Origin: a virus
DNA: 20,361 nt
Strand: one strand, 5' to 3'
Virus record (IMG/VR): IMGVR_UViG_3300021197_000826
Location: 1-20,361 of that record
A program made the position numbers and the translations under genes. The notes below the pieces were generated by a model that was not told where the DNA came from, did not search any database, and saw only the letters and a program-made list of their open reading frames with translations. Positions 4,901 through 19,668 of this stretch are shown piece by piece. Positions within the stretch are counted from its first letter, which is position 1; each line of letters starts with the position of its first letter.

Positions 4901-7900
4901 GTTATCAACAACAAACCCATTCTTGAATCGGTCAAGTCCGTCACCATCTTGAATTTGAAAAGTTTCTGTATCTTTTTCAAGCATATTGAGTTGAGTATAA
5001 TACTCAAGATTCTCTACTCTCTCGCTGATCTTACCAATATCAGACATAGTGAATCTCTTATGTTTCAACTTACGAACACCAATATCAAGAGGATTGAATG
5101 TGTATTGTGGAACTCTGAACTCTGCAAGAAGCATTCCGTCATCAAGTTTATTTGGCATCTCTGGATTTTCAGCGGCCCCACCTGAGATTGTTTGAAACTC
5201 ACCTTCTGTATCCAAATACAATGCAGAGTTTTGTGGTAGATAAAAATCAAATGATGCTAAGAAAGTATTATCAGTTTTTGGAATATCAACAAGGGAAGCA
5301 GTTCCAACAGTAAAATCTCTTTTAGGAAATTGAAATGCAGACATTGAAGTATCATCTAATTCATCACCTGTCATTCCAGCAGTTCCATCATTTGCAGCTG
5401 TAATTGTATCAACATCACCAACTCTAGGTCTAAAGTCTACTGAATCTCTAAGTTCATATTCACCAGTTGGAGAAATTGTATCTGGGTCAACTCTTTGTGC
5501 TGAATATACTGGAATCTCTTCGTATGTGATACTTGTTGTTGATGTACCCACTGGATATGAGTCTACACTAAAATAGTTTCCTGCACCATGAGTAAAGTAA
5601 TCATAAATGATAAGAAGTCTTCCAGTTGGTGGCGTAGAACCAGCCTTTCGGGTAAGTCTTCCAATATCATAATATGTGTCTCTCATTCCAGTGTCGATCT
5701 GAAAATCACTTAGAATATTTGTACTTCCAGTGGCAATAGCCGTTGTGGTCAAAGTATTTGCAAAGGTATTCTGAGATGAAGTTAATGTAGTACCGACTGC
5801 AAAAGTCTTGGTAGTCAAGTAGACTATGTTTGCTGTTGAGGTAGTTCCTGTTGTTCCACCTGTAACAACTCTCGCAATTGCACCATTAGAACCTGTAATT
5901 TTTTCTCCAGGCTGAAAGATTTCAGTTGAAAGTGTGTTACCCCCTGTTCCATTATTATATGTTACAGTTGGAGTCGTTGCATCAGCAGAAGATGTTCCCA
6001 TGTAAACTGCACGAACTTTAAAGATATCAGCCTTCTGCAAAGAAATTTCTGAGTCTTTATAGTTGGTTCCAAAAATATTACCCTTCTCATTTCTGATATG
6101 TAATTGATTTGAAGGAGAAAGAGTTTTTGTTTTTTCTTGAGCCGTTGCAATCTGAACTGTGAAAGTAACTTTGAGTACCATCGAAGCACCACTAGCAACT
6201 GTTATTCCTAAACTAGTAGTTCCTATGTTTAAAACAGTTCCAGACCCAGTTGTTGCTGGGGATAATAATTGTCCATCTGGATAAACAGTATTTGAAGCAC
6301 GATCATGTACTTGTATCATATAATCATCAGCAGTAAAAGAAACAAATGATTCACCTTCTGGTAAAGAAATACTTCCACCCCCACCCGATAAAGTAACTGT
6401 TTCTTGTCTGCGAACTGTAAGTGTAGTGTCAACTTGATTGTTTAAACGAGAAGACTTGAGAGTTTTAACTGCATTTTTTGGAAGTTTAGAAATCATTACC
6501 AACTCTTCCTGTTCTTCAATTTTAGACCGAACTCTTAGAATAGTTGAACCAGAAATGCTTGTAGGTAAAGTTTCGACTGTAGTAAATGCAACATCACTTG
6601 CGATAGCTCCAACTTCTACTCTTCTAACTGTACCACCTGTATCCTGCATTTCTACGAGATCCCCAATCTTGAGATCACCAAGAAATCCAGTATTCGTTCC
6701 ACTTACGACTGTTCCAGATGCTCCAGTGTTTCCTGTAGCAGAAACACTACCTGTTAATTTCTTTGCATCGGCTGGATAAATGTCTGTGATATAATCTGAA
6801 CCATTGTCATCACTGAATAATGAGTGAGCATCCCCCATTCCAAAATAAACTGGGGCTGCATTTAAAGTTGCTGTTCCACCAGCAGGAGCAGTACCTCCAA
6901 AGTCTTCACTGATACTACTTGTGATGGTTTCTCCGTTTTGAAATGTTCCTGTGGTCTGAATAATATGAAAAGTTGTACCACTTTCAATTCTTAGTCCATC
7001 TGGATTAGCAGGTATTGATGTTACAGTTGCATCTGATCCATTTTTTACTGTACTTGAAACTAGGTCTTGTTTTGTGATATGAACAAATCCAGTTGCACCA
7101 GAAGTAGACCCTGTAATTTTTGCACCATTATGAAGAGTATTAGAGGATGACATTGCAGCTGAAAGTGTCAACTTACATAACATCCGAACATCAAAAAGAT
7201 AATGTTGAAATCTAGATGTTAATGGATAGGCTCCTGTGATATATCCACCTTCAGAACCAGTACCATGTTCAAATGCTCTTGTTCTTGCAAATCCAATTAC
7301 GTTTGCTTTATTTGCATCAGTTGTTTGTGGATCAATACCCCATCCAGTAATGAGTGCATTTACAAGATGTGCAGCTGCAGACCCAAATGCACCAGTTCCA
7401 CCACCCCTAACCACTGTCCATGTTTTATTTGCAGTTCCAGCTGTATTAGTGACCTTTAGTATTTCACTACCCATTCTAATTAAGAAATGAGTAGCGGCAT
7501 TACCAGTAGCGGCTACAGGAAATCTTGCAGCCGAATCAACAGCAATAGTAACTGCTGAATCATTAATTCCAGCAGTTTCTAAATGAGTTTGTGGTATTCT
7601 CTGATCACGAATCTCAACTTCTTTGAATGGTGAAAGTGTCGTTCCGAAAGAGTCAATATCTGGTGAACCAAATGTATTCTCTACCTGAAGGAAGTTTCCT
7701 GCACTAAATGTAGTTGGGTAATTTTGTACGAACTCTGTACTTCTAGCCTTGTCTAAGGGAACTACTGTCTGTCCAATAGTTTCTACCTCAAAACCTCTGA
7801 TGTATGCTTTGCCTGGAGCAAGCACGACTGCAACTTTAGTGGCATCTCCACCATTCGTAGATGTAAATACACCATTGTTCAATCCATCATCAAAATGTTC

Positions 7901-10668: not shown

Positions 10669-13600
10669 CTATGTCCCAATCGTAGTATCAAACGATGGTG
10701 GGGCTGTATTGTCTGAAAAATCTGGTGGAGATGTATTATCATCAAATGAAACATACTCCCCAGTAGTTACATTTACTCCTCTGATGTATGAGGGAGGCGG
10801 TACGTTCCATAATTTGTTTGAAGTCCTTGGAATTGTAACGTGTTCCTCCATCTGTATATAATCACCATCCTCATGGATGATATGATCTACATCATCATGA
10901 TTACCATGTTCAGCCACATCATCAACTAATCTAGATCCTCTTATGATATCAACTATACGAACATCCCCAAAGGAATCCAGAGTCATCTGAGAACCCATCT
11001 CCCAAACACCAATCTGAATGTTGGTATAATTCATAGTGCTATCATAAACCCCTGCACTTCCAGCTGTTACATTATCTGTTCCTGTTTCTGGAACAGATCT
11101 ACGAGTTATATTTGGATATGCATATTCCAAACCCCCATCCAATCTTTGAGGTGATGAATCGTTCACATAACTAGTGGCCCAGAGATACTTGGTTGCAGTC
11201 TTTTGAGTTGCACCCAGACCATATCGATTCTTTCTAAGTGAATCAAATCCACTGTAGATGGAACGAATTGTAAGATCCTTATGAGTTCTTACTGTGAGAT
11301 CTCTTGTGTCTTTATCAAATGCTCGTGTGAGAACTATCTGTCCTTTAGTTCCAATAGCTGCAGGGGTTGTTAGAGAATTACTAACTGTAAATTGTAATGA
11401 CCCGACAGTTGGGATTGCTGTGACTGTATAATACCCATCATATCCTGAAGTAGTAACACCCATCACTTGTATTTCCTCATTTACCTGAACACCATGAGCT
11501 CCATTTGAATTAAGAGTGGCTGTAGTTCCAGTTCTGGTAATAGACTCAATAGGTGTGACCAATCCAAAATCATGACCACTCATATTATTACTACGTTTCA
11601 AAGTACCAGTACCAAGGTAACTGGTTCCCTTCATTTCTAATTGACTTGCAATAGAAGTACTATCATCTGTAGTACCCATCTTTCTTCGGACAATCGTAGT
11701 AATGACTGCCTCAAAGAGACTTGCAAGTTCTGGTGTGACTGAAGTAATTCCAGTAATAGGTGTGGTCATTCTTGTTGCAAGTCTTGTAGATAAACTTACC
11801 TCTCCAAATACTGCAAAACCAGCAGGATGAACTGCTTTCTTGACTGACCCTCTCCAATCTGCAATGGCTGCACCAGCTCTAACCACATAAGAAAAGTCTT
11901 GATAGTAGAATGAGTCCTGAATTTTCATCAAGGATTCACTGACCTTACCTTTGTCATTTTCGTAAGCACCAGCAGTTGTTCCTACTGTTCCTATCTCTGC
12001 TGTTAAAGATGCTTGAGATTTTCTTGAGAGAATCGCATAGTTTGATGTTGATCCTCTTCTTAAAATTTCACCTACTGTAAACGTACCACTCTTTATTGTG
12101 AGTGTTAAAATCTGTCTAGTCTGATCCCATGAAACTACATCGGCAGTAGCACTAGAAGATTGTCCTGTGATATCATCCCCTACACTAAATGAAGTACTAA
12201 GTGTTAAATCTTGAGGAGATGCTTCATTTATATTTCTAGTAAGTAAAACCTTGAGAGGTACAGTAAGAGTAGGTGATGAGGTATATCCTGTACCAAAGTT
12301 TGTGACTTCAAGACCCTTGACTGCACCAAGATTAGTTTGAGCCCATGCAACAAAAGTTGCACCTGTACCATGAGTAGTTACGCTTGTTAAATATGCTTTT
12401 GCACCAGAAGTAGATCCAGTAATTGTATTACCTTGTGCAAAGGTTCCTGAAGATGTAACAATACTTGCATTTCCTGTTCTCAGTACTGCTATTGTTCCAG
12501 TTGCATCACCAGTTGTAATTGTCTCCCCTGCTTTGAATTGTCCTGAAGTTGTTTGTGCAAGTGTAGACCAGTTTATTCTTGCAGTTGTGGCAACTACTGT
12601 AGGAACAATCTCATATCCAGATCCACCATTGAAGGTTTTAATATTAACTACCTGTCCTGCTTCAGATGCAACTCCAAGGTCTGTAAAAGTTTGTGTTTCT
12701 AATTCTATCTGATTACCAGTATATGCATCAGTTTTTTCAGTTGCATCTTCATATACAATGTGATCAAAAGTGTCCATACCATAAGCACTGGCAATGGTAA
12801 GTGTTACTCCACTTCCATTAGCAGTCGCAACTTGGGCTGATGGATTAACTTCATTTTGTATAGTGATAGTACCATTATTACTTGAACCTTCGGTAGTGAT
12901 TTGTCTAATTGTTGAACCAGCTGGAATACCAGTACCAGATATTGATTGACCAGTATGTTCTTCTAAGTGTATAAGTTGTCTGACTGTTCCATTTACCCCA
13001 CCAGAATTAGCTGCAGCAGAAATTGTAATAGTTCCATCATTACTAGTCCCTACAACATCAATAGAACTTATAGTAGCTCCTGTAGGAATTCCTGTGCCTA
13101 TGATAGTAGAACCGACAACAAAACCTATCGTAGTTACATTTGTAATTGTTGTTTCTGATGTAGTAACTTTTCCAGTAAAGTCTATAAATCTTGCTGGTGA
13201 AAGAGTGGTTGTGGTTATGTTTGAAATTGAAATTGAACCACTAGAAGTATTTCCTGTGACTGTATGACTAGCAGTATCTCCTGCTTCTGGAGCAATTGCA
13301 CCACCGACACAAGTAATCTTTGCAGATGCACCGACCCCTTCGGTATTTGCATTATCGAAAAATAGATCCTGTCCTACAGAATAACCTATGCCTGGATTGT
13401 CAATTGCAACTTCTTCAACCGAGCCAGGCGAAACATCCACAATTGTGATCTCAGCTTTTTCTCCTACGAGACTTGTTGCAGTAACAACATCACTTGTGGT
13501 ATAGAAAGATCCACCATTTGTTACATTTGCTCCTGTGATGATTGACTGAACTGTTCCTGCAATTGCTAAGTCTGCATTTGCATTGTCAATTCCTGTGATT

Positions 13601-14520
13601 GTAGCACCAGAAACAAATGTACCATCTATTGAGTCAACATTGAATACTAATTCAAATACAATAGTTGAACCTTCTTGAAACTGAAGAACTGTTTCAATAA
13701 CAGCAGTTGATGCAGTAGCCCCTAAGTCTGCATCAGTTGTTTGTGTGATAGTCTGTCCTGAAAGATTTGTAGGATCACCTTGAGTTGCAACTACACGGAG
13801 AACTGTAGATGTAGACCATTCACCAGCAGATATCTTGAGAACATTATCTCTGGGATAAAAGATCTCAGGAGTCTCACCAAAGATCAATCGAAAGAAAAGT
13901 TCATGACCTCTTCGTGTTCCTTTTGCACGATAAAGATCACGAATATTCTTGACCAGTGTTCTCTTAGATACTCCTGAAGCAAGAGTGTTTGGAATGGCTG
14001 TAAGATAAGAGTCCCTAAACTGATCAAGAAAATCCGTAATCGTTTTATCAATATCAGCATACTCCAACAATTGTTGAAGTGTCTGAACTGGATTACCTTG
14101 ATACTTGGAGATCTTACCACGGGCACTAGAAGACCCACCAGTAATAATTTCCCCAACTTGAAAGAACCGATTTTGTTCTATGTAGATTGATGAATTTGCA
14201 TTGTCTTCTGCAAGAACTACAGCAGTAGCACCAGAGGTTAGACCTGTGACTGTTTCACCCTTTTCAAAAACACCAAAAATAGAATCATCTGTATAGATCT
14301 TATTACCATCTTCTAGTAATGCAAAGTTGGTAGTAAGTTCATTCTCAAGAAGAATATTATCTGGAGCTTCAACTTGAGACATAGTAATTTTTGCAGATTC
14401 CATGAACTCATAGTAGAGTCTTAGAAATTCTACAAAGACAGGATGATCTGTCCTTACAAACTCAGGAAATTTATCCTCTATAAAAGAGGATATTTTGGTA
14501 TCTAAAAAAGTGTTGGCCAT
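10669..14520 (-). CDS. Probable baseplate wedge protein gp7 equivalent (1283 aa)
   Basis: Synteny is the main argument for gp7: it lies exactly between gp6 and gp8, and T4 gp7 is also very large (1032 aa). The N-terminus ('FPEFVRTDHPVFVEFLRLYY', residues 18-37) and 'NIRDLYRAKGTRRGHELFFR' (192-211) are conserved in large structural proteins of marine T4-like phages. So are 'IQDSFYYQDFSYVVRAG' (867-883) and 'VHPAGFAVFGEV' (897-908). The middle is built from beta-rich repeats: 'FEKGETVTGLTSGATA' (85-100) and similar, 'GTGIP.G' tandem repeats (470-555), and 'GSGY' elements (336-340, 633-636, 743-746). An Ig-like 'SNGAHGVQVNEEIQVMG' module lies near 1005-1050. The C-terminus has an acidic, His-rich stretch (1200-1227). 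TAATAAATG joins it to gp6, and the Shine-Dalgarno is weak. I see no direct sequence match to T4 gp7. Confidence 0.68.
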   Translation of the reverse strand: MANTFLDTKISSFIEDKFPEFVRTDHPVFVEFLRLYYEFMESAKITMSQVEAPDNILLENELTTNFALLEDGNKIYTDDSIFGVFEKGETVTGLTSGATAVVLAEDNANSSIYIEQNRFFQVGEIITGGSSSARGKISKYQGNPVQTLQQLLEYADIDKTITDFLDQFRDSYLTAIPNTLASGVSKRTLVKNIRDLYRAKGTRRGHELFFRLIFGETPEIFYPRDNVLKISAGEWSTSTVLRVVATQGDPTNLSGQTITQTTDADLGATASTAVIETVLQFQEGSTIVFELVFNVDSIDGTFVSGATITGIDNANADLAIAGTVQSIITGANVTNGGSFYTTSDVVTATSLVGEKAEITIVDVSPGSVEEVAIDNPGIGYSVGQDLFFDNANTEGVGASAKITCVGGAIAPEAGDTASHTVTGNTSSGSISISNITTTTLSPARFIDFTGKVTTSETTITNVTTIGFVVGSTIIGTGIPTGATISSIDVVGTSNDGTITISAAANSGGVNGTVRQLIHLEEHTGQSISGTGIPAGSTIRQITTEGSSNNGTITIQNEVNPSAQVATANGSGVTLTIASAYGMDTFDHIVYEDATEKTDAYTGNQIELETQTFTDLGVASEAGQVVNIKTFNGGSGYEIVPTVVATTARINWSTLAQTTSGQFKAGETITTGDATGTIAVLRTGNASIVTSSGTFAQGNTITGSTSGAKAYLTSVTTHGTGATFVAWAQTNLGAVKGLEVTNFGTGYTSSPTLTVPLKVLLTRNINEASPQDLTLSTSFSVGDDITGQSSSATADVVSWDQTRQILTLTIKSGTFTVGEILRRGSTSNYAILSRKSQASLTAEIGTVGTTAGAYENDKGKVSESLMKIQDSFYYQDFSYVVRAGAAIADWRGSVKKAVHPAGFAVFGEVSLSTRLATRMTTPITGITSVTPELASLFEAVITTIVRRKMGTTDDSTSIASQLEMKGTSYLGTGTLKRSNNMSGHDFGLVTPIESITRTGTTATLNSNGAHGVQVNEEIQVMGVTTSGYDGYYTVTAIPTVGSLQFTVSNSLTTPAAIGTKGQIVLTRAFDKDTRDLTVRTHKDLTIRSIYSGFDSLRKNRYGLGATQKTATKYLWATSYVNDSSPQRLDGGLEYAYPNITRRSVPETGTDNVTAGSAGVYDSTMNYTNIQIGVWEMGSQMTLDSFGDVRIVDIIRGSRLVDDVAEHGNHDDVDHIIHEDGDYIQMEEHVTIPRTSNKLWNVPPPSYIRGVNVTTGEYVSFDDNTSPPDFSDNTAPPSFDTTIGT

Positions 14521-14523
14521 TTA

Positions 14524-16404
14524 TTAACTTGTGGTATATGCACTACCAACTGAAGATGTAGAACTGGTTGTTGTGTATCCTACACCAGCAGTTGATGTTC
14601 CCTCAGCAAAAGTATCAATTTCTGCCGTTGTTGAACTACCAACTGTATCAATTTCAACCACTTGATTTCTTACAGGAATGACATCGTTAGAGTCAGGTTT
14701 TACTGTAACACTAATTGTTCCATCTGTATTCTCAACTGAAGTAACATTCAAAGAAGTCAATACGACCTCGCCTGTAGTATAATTGATTGTTCCTGCTGTG
14801 GCATTTGTGATAGTCTTTGTGGTTCCACCTAAAAGATAGAAAGTTCTAATTACTCCACTACCATCATCATCAATGTACTGTTCGTTTGTATCTCCTGACA
14901 GAAAAAATCCAGAGGATTCCACAACTGTCTGTGAGTGAGCATTAGTTGGATGATAAGCCGCATTATTGAAACTGATTGTATACTTAGTGGATGCATTTAA
15001 AGTTGGTGTAATTTTTCTTTTCAATTTAACTGCAACTGTACTTGACAATATTGCTGGGTCTGCATCATCTACGGCCTTGAGAAGATTGGAGTGTCTAAAA
15101 ACACTATCGAACTTCTGAAGATTGTTTGTATTAAAAGATGATACGGCAGTCTCAGCAAGTGCTCGAATATCTGAGTTGGTCTTCTCTGAAAGTGTCGAAT
15201 TATATTTCACTGTAGTTGTAAGCTCCAAAAGAAGTGTGATAGGATCAACAATAACAGGAGTGACAGATGCTACATTGAAAGCCTTGAGACTTGAAATGAT
15301 AGAATTTTTTGTTGTCGTTGTAAGTGTCGTTCCTGTATTTGGTTTGATAGAAATATAGACTTGACCATAAACAGCAGGATCGTTGTCTTCACCACCCCAA
15401 ACTGATATTGATTTTATGTTAGTGTATATACTTGGAAGAATTGACTTATAATCATCTGGTGTAACGGCCCTACTCTGAGATGCAAATTTAAGAGGAGCAT
15501 TGAACTTAATAGAATCTACTGATTCAGAAAGACCCCCACCTGAAGCACTCCCAACTGTAGTAACTGTTATATCAGAATATCCCCCAATAGTAGATGCTGC
15601 TGTAAATGTACTAGCTCCATCAGAATCAGATCCATTAGTTACCACATAGTCTAAGATAACAATATTTCCATCAACTGGTTTTTTGCCCGAAACACCATCT
15701 CCAAAGTATACCTCAAATCTACCATCCTCAACCTCTTGTAAAAAATACTTAGTTGATGTGGATAATAAATTTGTATAATCTGTATTGAGAGTGTAAGTTG
15801 TTGTTGTAGTGTCAGAGGATGAAGTTTGAACTCTAACAACTAAAGTGTCTGTATCAACATTTGCTGAAGGAATAATAAATTGTTGTTCCAAATTTGAACT
15901 GTTTGCTGTGTATTGAAAGTTTACTCTTGTACCTTCAAATATCTTGACATCATTGAAAGCAAATATTCCAGTATCAGAAGTTGAAGTTGAATCTGCAATA
16001 GTGACAAAATTAAATGAAGTATCATTAACTGTAGTTGTAAAAATTGTCCCTGCTGACATCACCAAAGAAGACTGAGAAGTTGGTACATTACTTACACTTA
16101 TTGATACTGTTGCGTTTGATGCTTTCATTGATGAAGGTGTGTATCCCAAAGATTTTGCATGGGATACTGCATTTGCTCTGATAACTGTAGAATCTAGAAA
16201 CATTTCGTTTGCAAGCATATTTGCATGAAACGCCAGATAGTGTGTATTGTATGCCAAAAGATCCATAAGGACTGACATACCAGAACCTTCAAAGTTGTAG
16301 TCTGTAAATTGTGATTGTTGGGAAAGGTATGTTTGAAAGTTAGATTTTACTGCATCAAAATCTAGATCAGTGATCTCTATTTTTCCCTTTGCATTTGTAG
16401 CCAT
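14524..16404 (-). CDS. 6: Baseplate wedge protein gp6 (626 aa, baseplate J family)
   Basis: Its length is close to T4 gp6 (660 aa). The N-terminus contains the family pattern 'ITDLDFDAVKSNFQTYLSQQ' (11-30), followed by 'FEGSGMSVLMDLLAYNTHYL' (38-57) and 'DSTVIRANAVSHAKSLGYTP' (71-90). This helical core is shared by gp6 and baseplate J-type proteins. Around residues 225-255 'RFEVYFGDGVSGKKP' is a second conserved motif, and the region near 305-335 ('SQSRAVTPDDYKSILPSIYT') is a third. In T4, gp6 forms the continuous ring that joins the six wedges and drives sheath contraction. It starts one base after the gp25 stop (TAATATG) and ends with tandem stops (TAATAA) directly before the next ATG. The order gp25-gp6-gp7-gp8 supports the call. 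Confidence 0.9.
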   Translation of the reverse strand: MATNAKGKIEITDLDFDAVKSNFQTYLSQQSQFTDYNFEGSGMSVLMDLLAYNTHYLAFHANMLANEMFLDSTVIRANAVSHAKSLGYTPSSMKASNATVSISVSNVPTSQSSLVMSAGTIFTTTVNDTSFNFVTIADSTSTSDTGIFAFNDVKIFEGTRVNFQYTANSSNLEQQFIIPSANVDTDTLVVRVQTSSSDTTTTTYTLNTDYTNLLSTSTKYFLQEVEDGRFEVYFGDGVSGKKPVDGNIVILDYVVTNGSDSDGASTFTAASTIGGYSDITVTTVGSASGGGLSESVDSIKFNAPLKFASQSRAVTPDDYKSILPSIYTNIKSISVWGGEDNDPAVYGQVYISIKPNTGTTLTTTTKNSIISSLKAFNVASVTPVIVDPITLLLELTTTVKYNSTLSEKTNSDIRALAETAVSSFNTNNLQKFDSVFRHSNLLKAVDDADPAILSSTVAVKLKRKITPTLNASTKYTISFNNAAYHPTNAHSQTVVESSGFFLSGDTNEQYIDDDGSGVIRTFYLLGGTTKTITNATAGTINYTTGEVVLTSLNVTSVENTDGTISVTVKPDSNDVIPVRNQVVEIDTVGSSTTAEIDTFAEGTSTAGVGYTTTSSTSSVGSAYTTS

Positions 16405-16405
16405 A

Positions 16406-16831
16406 TTATCTCAATGCTTCTAAAATTGTTTGAAATTCTATCAGTTCTGCTGGCATATTCTCAACATAAAAATAGACCCGAACATCATATCTGTTTGAGT
16501 CTCGAACTGGATAGCACTCTACTGATTCTACTCTAGCCCTTGGTTCGTAGTTAGAGATTATTTCCTCTATCTGTCTGGAAAGTTGATTTCCTGTTATGGG
16601 GCCAAAGTTTTCAAAAAGTAAGGCAGGGATATTAGAGCCAATCTCAGGATGAAATGGTCTATCGTAGTGGTTGGTGAGAAGAAGATTACGAATGGAACGC
16701 TTGACTGCATTAACATCCGTAACAGTTGCCACATCGCCTGTGACAGGATTTCTTGTAAAGTTCAGATTCAGATCTTTATAGATCCTTGTTGAACGCTTCT
16801 CATTTTGACTAGATGCATCGTAATTTGGCAT
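16406..16831 (-). CDS. 25: Baseplate wedge protein gp25 (141 aa)
   Basis: This is a member of the GPW/gp25 family. The conserved core is at residues 44-76 ('KRSIRNLLLTNHYDRPFHPE' followed by 'IGSNIPALLFENF'). The C-terminal beta part 'VRVYFYVENMPAELIEFQ' is also typical, and T4 gp25 has a similar length (132 aa). In T4, gp25 binds gp6 and the inner end of the sheath and primes sheath polymerisation; despite older reports of lysozyme activity, it is a structural part. The start is fixed by AGGGGA six bases before ATG 16831. A perfect late promoter lies 18 bases upstream, and the binding site is part of a strong inverted repeat with that promoter, described separately. gp6 follows after one base. 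Confidence 0.93.
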   Translation of the reverse strand: MPNYDASSQNEKRSTRIYKDLNLNFTRNPVTGDVATVTDVNAVKRSIRNLLLTNHYDRPFHPEIGSNIPALLFENFGPITGNQLSRQIEEIISNYEPRARVESVECYPVRDSNRYDVRVYFYVENMPAELIEFQTILEALR

Positions 16832-16835
16832 AATT

Positions 16836-16863
16836 TTCCCCTATGTTATTATTTATAGGGGAA
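16836..16863 (-). promoter_or_regulatory. Hairpin that can mask the gp25 ribosome binding site, with the late promoter in its 5' arm
   Basis: On the minus strand the arms TTCCCCTAT (16863-16855) and ATAGGGGAA (16844-16836) are perfectly complementary over nine base pairs, with a 10-base loop. The 3' arm contains the AGGGGA Shine-Dalgarno of gp25. The 5' arm and loop contain the late promoter TATAAATA. RNA reading through from the upstream operon would carry both arms and could fold. RNA started at the late promoter (expected start near 16844) would keep only the 3' arm. No U-run follows, so it is not a terminator. Confidence 0.75.
16850..16857 (-). promoter_or_regulatory. T4-type late promoter (TATAAATA) for the gp25-gp6-gp7 unit
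   Basis: An exact minus-strand TATAAATA lies between the membrane-protein gene (stop at 16872) and gp25. It ends 18 bases before the gp25 ATG, giving an expected leader of only about 13 bases that still holds AGGGGA. It overlaps the 5' arm of the inverted repeat at 16836-16863. Confidence 0.87.
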
Positions 16864-16871
16864 GACTACCC

Positions 16872-17168
16872 TTATTCTTTGTCGTGCAAGTCTTTAGTCT
16901 CTTTATGCTCTGGGTCATCCTTATCTTTGAACCAGTAGTCAGCTGTCTTAGTCAAAACAGCAACATAAGTTCCAATAAGGATGTTAATCAGATCACGATA
17001 TGTGTCTTGTACTTCTTGGAAAAATAAAACATATATCAATATAAAGAATATTGAAAATACGATACCACTGATTATAAACCGAGCGGCAAAGTTCCATTTT
17101 TTTCTAGTTTCAACGGCTCCATGTTTTTCATCAGATCCGTTTCCGTTTGTTTCAGCTTGTTTAGCCAT
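16872..17168 (-). CDS. Small membrane protein, possibly holin-like (98 aa)
   Basis: I chose ATG 17168 (MAKQAETNGN) over an upstream in-frame ATG at 17201 because AGGTGGGA sits at the right distance before it. The first ~35 residues are hydrophilic and basic at the end ('ETRKKW'). A strong membrane segment follows ('IISGIVFSIFFILIYVLFF', about 33-51), then a second moderately hydrophobic segment ('LINILIGTYVAVLTKTADYW', about 61-80), then a charged tail ('FKDKDDPEHKE' onward). Two membrane passes with charged ends and this size fit a holin, and the 'IG.YVAVLTKTADYWFK' end recalls small phage membrane proteins. No lysis partner is visible in the window, so the role is uncertain. It sits between spike and wedge genes, with a candidate late promoter just upstream. 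Confidence 0.72.
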   Translation of the reverse strand: MAKQAETNGNGSDEKHGAVETRKKWNFAARFIISGIVFSIFFILIYVLFFQEVQDTYRDLINILIGTYVAVLTKTADYWFKDKDDPEHKETKDLHDKE

Positions 17169-17235
17169 ATCATTCCCACCTGAAATATTATTTAAATCCA
17201 TAACTTATCCATAAATTAGATTTCACTCACATACC

Positions 17236-17243
17236 TATTTATC
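17236..17243 (-). promoter_or_regulatory. Candidate T4-type late promoter (GATAAATA, one mismatch)
   Basis: The minus strand reads GATAAATA, seven of eight matches to TATAAATA, overlapping the TGA stop of the 80-aa gene (TGATAAATA). It is the best match in the 73-base gap before the membrane-protein gene. A second weaker match (TTTAAATA) lies nearer the start, so which one is used, if any, is unclear. Confidence 0.4.
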
Positions 17244-17484
17244 AATTAATTTTGAATGTCCTATCTACCATTCTGATTTTTTCTGCATCATGGTCATGTA
17301 TGTAAACTTCTTTTATTGGGCCGTCTATGTTCTTGTCCCAATAGTCTAAAAATCTAGTAATTCTTGGATAGTCTGGTAATTGGTCTTCAGTCTGCCAGAT
17401 AAACTCATTGACCAAACTGAGATAGTCTGGAATATAGTACACCACCTGAACTGAAGCACTTGTCCACTTCTTGAGTATAATCAT
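17242..17484 (-). CDS. Conserved-looking small protein of unknown function (80 aa)
   Basis: The gene overlaps the PAAR gene stop by ATGA, so it is translationally coupled to the spike tip gene. The protein is rich in aromatic residues ('VVYYIPDYLSLVNEFIWQTE', about 14-33; 'RFLDYWDKNIDGPIKEVYIH', about 44-63). It has no signal peptide, no clear membrane segment and no enzyme motif that I recognise. The mixed alpha/beta pattern suggests a small globular domain. Its place between PAAR and the membrane protein suggests a tail-tip or assembly role, but nothing in the sequence proves that. I cannot name a family. Confidence 0.65.
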   Translation of the reverse strand: MIILKKWTSASVQVVYYIPDYLSLVNEFIWQTEDQLPDYPRITRFLDYWDKNIDGPIKEVYIHDHDAEKIRMVDRTFKIN

Positions 17485-19608: not shown

Positions 19609-19613
19609 ATAGA

Positions 19614-19621
19614 TATTTATG
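19614..19621 (-). promoter_or_regulatory. Candidate T4-type late promoter (CATAAATA) abutting the gp5 start
   Basis: The minus strand reads CATAAATA, seven of eight matches to the late consensus. It lies directly after a strong terminator, as expected for the first promoter of a new operon. Only five bases separate it from the gp5 ATG, so RNA from it would begin at or near the start codon. The bases TCCATA (19623-19618) and TATGGA (19609-19604, including the ATG) can pair. Confidence 0.5.
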
Positions 19622-19636: not shown

Positions 19637-19668
19637 AAAAAAAAGGGGAACCCAAAAAGGATTCCCCT
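19637..19668 (-). terminator. Rho-independent terminator
   Basis: On the minus strand AGGGGAATCC (19668-19659) pairs with GGGTTCCCCT (19653-19644) over ten base pairs (one G-T wobble), with a TTTTT loop. The stem is followed at once by a run of T residues down to 19637. It sits 65 bases after the stop of the 186-aa gene and just before the gp5 promoter, so it separates the two transcription units. Confidence 0.9.

Follow-up and report, generated by a model that had tools for sequence, protein, structure and literature searches.

Genes and features at the gp25 locus

The window analysed here is the whole 20,361-base stretch of an IMG/VR virus record, and the element under study lies on its minus strand. 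Profile searches identify gp25, gp6, gp8, gp5, a PAAR protein and a Usg-like gene. The start of gp25 is preceded by a short leader that contains an inverted repeat and a late promoter element, and the gene is followed at very short distances by gp6 and by a long open reading frame in the position of gp7 (Table 1). The upstream genes are closely packed on the same strand, in the order gp5, a 252-aa protein, PAAR, a Usg-like and/or a 139-aa protein, and a small predicted membrane protein. The Usg-like protein (PF06233, 6.7e-19; 17242-17484 in the window) lies in the interval between gp5 and gp25, and some relatives are without it.

Table 1. Features of the gp25 leader and of neighbouring genes and signals (positions in the window)
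Feature	Position	Strand	Evidence or remark
1283-aa protein, gp7 position	10669..14520	-	ORF list, position only; start 3 nt after gp6 stop
gp6 baseplate wedge protein	14524..16404	-	PHROG 219, 1.6e-183; start 1 nt after gp25 stop
gp25 baseplate wedge protein (sheath initiator family)	16406..16831	-	PHROG 261, 1.9e-47; Pfam GPW_gp25 1.4e-12
3' arm ATAGGGGAA	16836..16844	-	Invariant in all element-bearing relatives
gp25 Shine-Dalgarno AGGGGA	16837..16842	-	5 nt before ATG (16831-16829), inside 3' arm
Predicted late RNA start	16844	-	Placed 5 nt after TATAAATA
Hairpin loop AAATAATAAC	16854-16845	-	Sequence
T4-type late promoter element TATAAATA	16850..16857	-	Exact match
5' arm TTCCCCTAT	16855..16863	-	Perfect complement of 16836-16844
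Linker GGGTAGT	16865..16871	-	By folding, predicted partner of 16834-16827, which would carry the helix over the gp25 AUG
Small predicted membrane protein	16872..17201	-	Directly upstream; stop 8 nt before 5' arm
Late-type promoter CATAAATA + 5 nt	19609..19621	-	Directly before gp5 ATG (19608); same spacing in element-bearing relatives
Intrinsic terminator (AGGGGAATCC TTTTT GGGTTCCCCT + T-run)	19637..19668	-	Before gp5 promoter

Between the membrane-protein gene and gp25 the minus strand reads TAA, GGGTAGTC, TTCCCCTAT, AAATAATAAC, ATAGGGGAA, AATT and then the gp25 ATG. An 8-nt linker separates the membrane-protein stop (16872) from the first of two arms that are complementary at 9/9 positions, and the promoter element is laid across this structure with its TAT part in the 5' arm and its remainder in the loop. 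The initial annotation had described this arrangement as a perfect 9-bp repeat with the Shine-Dalgarno sequence (SD) of gp25 in the 3' arm and the promoter in the 5' arm plus loop; the sequence bears out the description, and all coordinates were correct when re-read against it. A search for imperfect repeats lengthens the arms to 14 nt at 86% (16868-16855 / 16844-16831), reaching the AUG, and a search of 16700-17000 against the Rfam covariance models found nothing at E values up to 1.

An intrinsic terminator at gp25 was considered and rejected, the stem being followed by AAAATTATG with no T-run and the site being absent from a terminator scan of the minus strand. A stable stem that lies 8 nt past the last upstream stop codon could also serve RNA stability or processing, protecting the upstream operon RNA at its 3' end or marking a cleavage site, with masking of the SD as an incidental effect. 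We regard this as quite improbable, because the hairpin lacks a T-run and hence is not a terminator, and because the 3' arm is exactly the SD plus its flank and the helix continues into the AUG.

Predicted masking of the gp25 SD on read-through RNA

Folding of both leaders, a check that the initial annotation had proposed, gave the outcome that it anticipated. On read-through RNA the SD is paired with a probability of 1.00, in structures of -12.6 to -19.8 kcal/mol depending on length, and on late RNA it is largely free, with a pairing probability of about 0.5 within a structure of -1 kcal/mol. These computations support the view that a late-started RNA would drop the 5' arm and expose the SD. 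The 5-nt distance that we infer between promoter and RNA start is consistent with the seven close late promoters of Pelagibacter phage HTVC008M, all of which lie exactly 5 nt before an ATG.

To place this effect on a common scale we defined a masking score as the opening energy of the SD-AUG region in read-through RNA minus that in RNA started 5 nt after TATAAATA, and applied it wherever a late promoter precedes an SD and an ORF. Window gp25 scores 12.0 kcal/mol and its relatives 10-16 kcal/mol, against a median of 3.0 kcal/mol over the T4 and relative sets; by the same score T4 gene e reaches 14.6 and 12.6 kcal/mol and I-TevII 12.9 kcal/mol, so that the predicted masking at gp25 equals that of T4 gene e in size. 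T4 soc scores low (2.4) under the 30-nt upstream limit, so the score misses arms that are farther away. When the 30 nt upstream of TATAAATA were shuffled, equal masking arose with p=0.005, and 0/88 upstream segments swapped in from other late promoters reached the window gp25 score. The T4 genes 26 and 51 (L394, T4 80001-118000, at about 36410-36480) share a palindrome with divergent late promoters, and they score as SD-masking because each SD is complementary to the upstream strand of the other; this caution does not apply to window gp25, whose upstream gene points the same way.

The bare repeat is unremarkable, as the window holds 2 perfect 9-bp inverted repeats with a short loop and shuffles lead one to expect 1.9, but its placement over both a late promoter and an SD goes beyond chance. 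A functionless palindrome that arose by chance or spread recently with its flanks would draw on this expectation of about two repeats per window, and on leaders that are common to recombining phages and offer few independent variants. We find it scarcely credible, given the placement (p=0.005) and the conservation of the arm described below.

For the lower stem, in which the linker would pair across the AUG, the evidence is suggestive. In folding comparisons, five of the six differing linkers outperform 92-99% of random ones whatever the native context, and the sixth (GGTCTAG) does better with one downstream half (p=0.06) and not with that of L019 (p=0.65), a leader without the lower stem. Native leader halves were also compared with chimeric ones: swaps among relatives do not weaken folding, and co-adaptation of the halves was not seen.

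Conservation of the hairpin within one clade

A search with gp25 in IMG/VR yielded 80 relatives, and conservation was assessed over 11 distinct element-bearing sequences, the window included. A search of IMG/VR for the hairpin found both copies with intact arms and the core of promoter plus 3' arm before gp25, the remaining matches to the loose pattern being unrelated or separate genes. Phage isolates gave no direct DNA similarity to the window, and a search of genome contigs found no relative; among isolates, those closest in gp25 are HTVC008M and Methylophilales phage Melnitz, at 54-55% identity (Kyanoviridae). A gp55-like late sigma factor is encoded by the near isolates HTVC008M, Melnitz and Mosig (E about 1e-21); a search of four element-bearing contigs, all of them fragmentary, did not find one.

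The segment TATAAATAATAACATAGGGGAA is unchanged in 11/11 element-bearing sequences. The left arm TTCCCC is identical in 10/11 and reads ATCTCC in the L033 group, in which the inner substitution still allows G-U pairing and the outermost pair no longer forms. Over these leaders the left arm is 94% identical and the six bases before it 50%; in the same sequences gp25 is 56% identical at third codon positions and 50.5% at fourfold sites. The flanking linker and the gp25 third positions are near saturation. Upstream of other TATAAATA sites the sequence is not conserved and holds no conserved CCCC, which argues that promoter function alone does not explain the left arm. The promoter and SD portions of the pairing may be conserved for their own sake, and the hairpin is tested by the six left-arm bases TTCCCC only. 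Paired changes in the two arms, which the initial annotation had suggested looking for, were sought among the element-bearing leaders: no compensatory double change was found, the arms and promoter being nearly invariant, and what did emerge is the left-arm variant of the L033 group with its retained G-U pair. Recombination may have spread one copy of the leader recently, since leaders are common to element-bearing sequences whose gp25 differ.

The same variant bears on a function at the DNA level, by which the inverted 9-bp half sites, 19 bp apart, would form an operator or an upstream promoter determinant. The half sites are symmetric, overlap the promoter and are near-invariant, and I-TevI offers a known case of an operator that overlaps a T4 late promoter (PMC2988022). 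Yet the L033 group breaks the DNA symmetry while keeping the RNA pairing, TATAAATA occurs elsewhere with no conserved CCCC before it, and there is no candidate regulator, all of which makes such an element highly improbable. We conclude that the gp25 hairpin is real and probably functional.

Beyond the element-bearing sequences gp25 starts in other ways. In the closest element-less phages (L010-L018, L021-L026 and others) there is no promoter, and gp25 directly adjoins the membrane-protein gene or overlaps it; this sister clade is without promoter and hairpin alike. Outside this coupled sister clade nearly all relatives have an ATAAATA-type motif directly before gp25: more distant relatives carry TATAAATA 5-9 nt before the gp25 ATG and no SD, and cyanophage-like phages combine TATAAATA with a free SD. 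The case that the initial annotation had named as contradicting its proposal, promoter and SD kept while the arms are not, does occur, but outside the clade, and within the clade the arms are kept; this marks the hairpin as a clade-specific feature. By this comparison the hairpin is one of several gp25 start designs and is restricted to one clade. A masking stem formed by AATCTC and GAGATT at the cyanophage-like gp25 was a weaker candidate and was dropped, its variants not tracking one another.

Probable source of transcription entering gp25 from upstream

In element-bearing contigs an element of the ATAAATA or CTAAATA type lies 5-8 nt ahead of the gp5 ATG, and a strong intrinsic terminator lies just upstream of the gp5 promoter in 8/8 of the contigs checked. 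Sigma-70-like sites occur at the level of shuffled sequence (12 vs 12.7 expected), with no excess and no early promoter identified. Given this late-type promoter behind a terminator and the lack of a sigma-70 excess, any read-through RNA into gp25 would most likely be late and started at the gp5 promoter.

This affects the role assigned to the hairpin. The initial annotation had proposed that early read-through RNA is silenced and that gp25, gp6 and the gene in the gp7 position are translated from late RNA only; the second part agrees with folding, which frees the SD on late RNA, and the early/late timing is not supported, because an upstream operon that most likely is itself late leaves early read-through unsupported and fits insulation between late operons better. 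A temporal switch of the T4 e/soc kind, with early or middle RNA entering gp25 and staying silent until late RNA appears, is accordingly a reading that we consider rather unlikely: it has the architecture of T4 e and I-TevI/II on its side, and the Usg-like, 139-aa and membrane-protein genes are not known to be structural, vary between contigs and could in some cases be early or middle genes, but the operon begins at gp5 behind a late-type promoter and terminator in 8/8 contigs and shows no sign of an early promoter.

We think it somewhat likely that in the gp25 leader an SD-masking hairpin encloses a late promoter, an arrangement that ties the output of gp25, gp6 and gp7 to their own promoter by translational insulation. 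RNA entering from the operon that runs from gp5 to the membrane-protein gene would carry both arms; the gp25 SD, and probably the AUG too, would then be paired, and gp25, gp6 and the next gene would be poorly translated from this read-through RNA. The late promoter of gp25 would give an RNA with its start at about 16844, no 5' arm and a free SD. With an upstream operon that is apparently late as well, the hairpin would probably serve to make the output of gp25-gp6-gp7 independent of upstream RNA and of ribosomes leaving the membrane-protein gene, with any effect on timing being secondary.

Promoter-hairpin leaders and short promoter spacings at other genes

Leaders with a promoter in a hairpin also precede gp5 in kin phages (L395, L401-L438, L111:981-1024, L256, L262, L263, L268, L273, L274 and L283). 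The gp5 leaders of the cyanophage-like phages and Melnitz resemble that of window gp25 in having TATAAATA in the hairpin loop and an AAGGGG-type SD in the 3' arm, and differ from it in that a T-run follows the stem, giving a terminator-like structure with a promoter inside. In a gap-free set of seven gp5 leaders 92% of cells pair, both partners have changed in four pairs (11 such cells), and covariation is 0.283 vs 0.120 in shuffled alignments (0/500). Such leaders may combine the roles of terminator and SD mask.

At other genes TATAAATA lies inside SD-covering hairpins of 12-17 bp, before genes that we labelled by eye as HNH-like endonuclease (L093:3600-3690; masking score 20.3 kcal/mol), GIY-YIG-like (L135:3680-3740) and tail-tube-like (L156:6430-6500 and L184, which carry the same leader). 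A TTTCCCCTATAAATAAATATAGGGGAA palindrome precedes an ORF of 52-67 aa in L083, L088, L090, L095, L097, L100, L101 and L105.

The distance between TATAAATA and the ATG is bimodal across related loci, at 5-9 or 16-30 nt with none at 10-15. In HTVC008M the late promoter lies exactly 5 nt before the ATG in 7/9 cases (L392, 1-50000; sites at 6267, 7549, 19443, 31119 and 49747 on the plus strand and 16020 and 18929 on the minus strand), as it does at window gp5 (19621-19608); short spacings were also noted in relatives of L042-L080, and in the T4 regions tested 0/26 late promoters lie within 9 nt of an ATG. Late mRNAs from promoters spaced at 5 nt would, as judged from these distances, be leaderless; for these phages we found no account of such mRNAs in the literature searched.

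More tentatively, and with doubt outweighing confidence, these designs can be read together: in marine T4-like phages gp5 and gp25, which lead the baseplate operons, might be translated only from RNA of their own late promoters, through interchangeable devices that provide general translational insulation inside the late phase, not timing. The first device would be the SD-masking promoter hairpin of gp25 in the window clade, the second a promoter nested in a terminator hairpin, as at gp5 of cyanophage-like phages and Melnitz, and the third a promoter at a distance of exactly 5 nt from the ATG, which would make late RNA alone leaderless, as at gp25 of HTVC008M-like phages and gp5 of the window clade.

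Comparison with known systems

The mechanism by which a late promoter relieves SD masking has been reviewed for the genes e, soc, 49, I-TevI/II, segB and mobE (PMC3014915, PMC2988022), and the initial annotation was right to cite T4 e and soc, where it is established. Window gp25 resembles this class in having a late promoter directly upstream, an SD that a stable helix predicted for longer RNA includes in its 3' arm and, assuming the 5-nt distance, a 5' arm upstream of the late start. In T4 gene e, likewise, one or more late promoters lie in the 5' arm or loop, the SD lies in the 3' arm, and it is masked on the long RNA and open on the late one, with a 100-fold effect (PMC3014915); the difference is that e stands in a region of early and middle transcription, where the switch is temporal, whereas window gp25 stands behind an apparently late operon. 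The leaders of T4 I-TevI, I-TevII and segB and of Aeh1 mobE share the RBS-sequestering hairpin with a late promoter inside (PMC2988022), but serve mobile-element genes within early or middle units, whereas gp25 is a structural gene.

T4 genes 25 and 26 are listed among RBS-sequestered genes (PMC2988022), and the characterised structure of T4 gene 25 enhances translation (PMC3014915). Like the window element, this split RBS involves RNA folding at the beginning of gene 25, but the structure lies between the SD and the AUG, shortens their spacing and has no late promoter adjoining (PMC3014915); in window gp25 the SD is 5 nt from the AUG and inside the hairpin, an arrangement other than a split RBS. 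The statement of the initial annotation that no such switch had been described at a baseplate wedge gene must be narrowed in view of the T4 25 listing (PMC2988022); the literature searched contained no description of this particular layout at gp25, in which the hairpin that masks the SD has a late promoter within it.

The element is short and testable, and the covarying gp5 versions in kin phages can be tested in parallel. A textbook T4 device, by which RNA made from the wrong promoter keeps its ribosome binding site hidden, would thereby be extended to uncultivated ocean phages and to a baseplate gene, in a context that suggests a purpose which the T4 cases do not show, the insulation of neighbouring late operons from one another.
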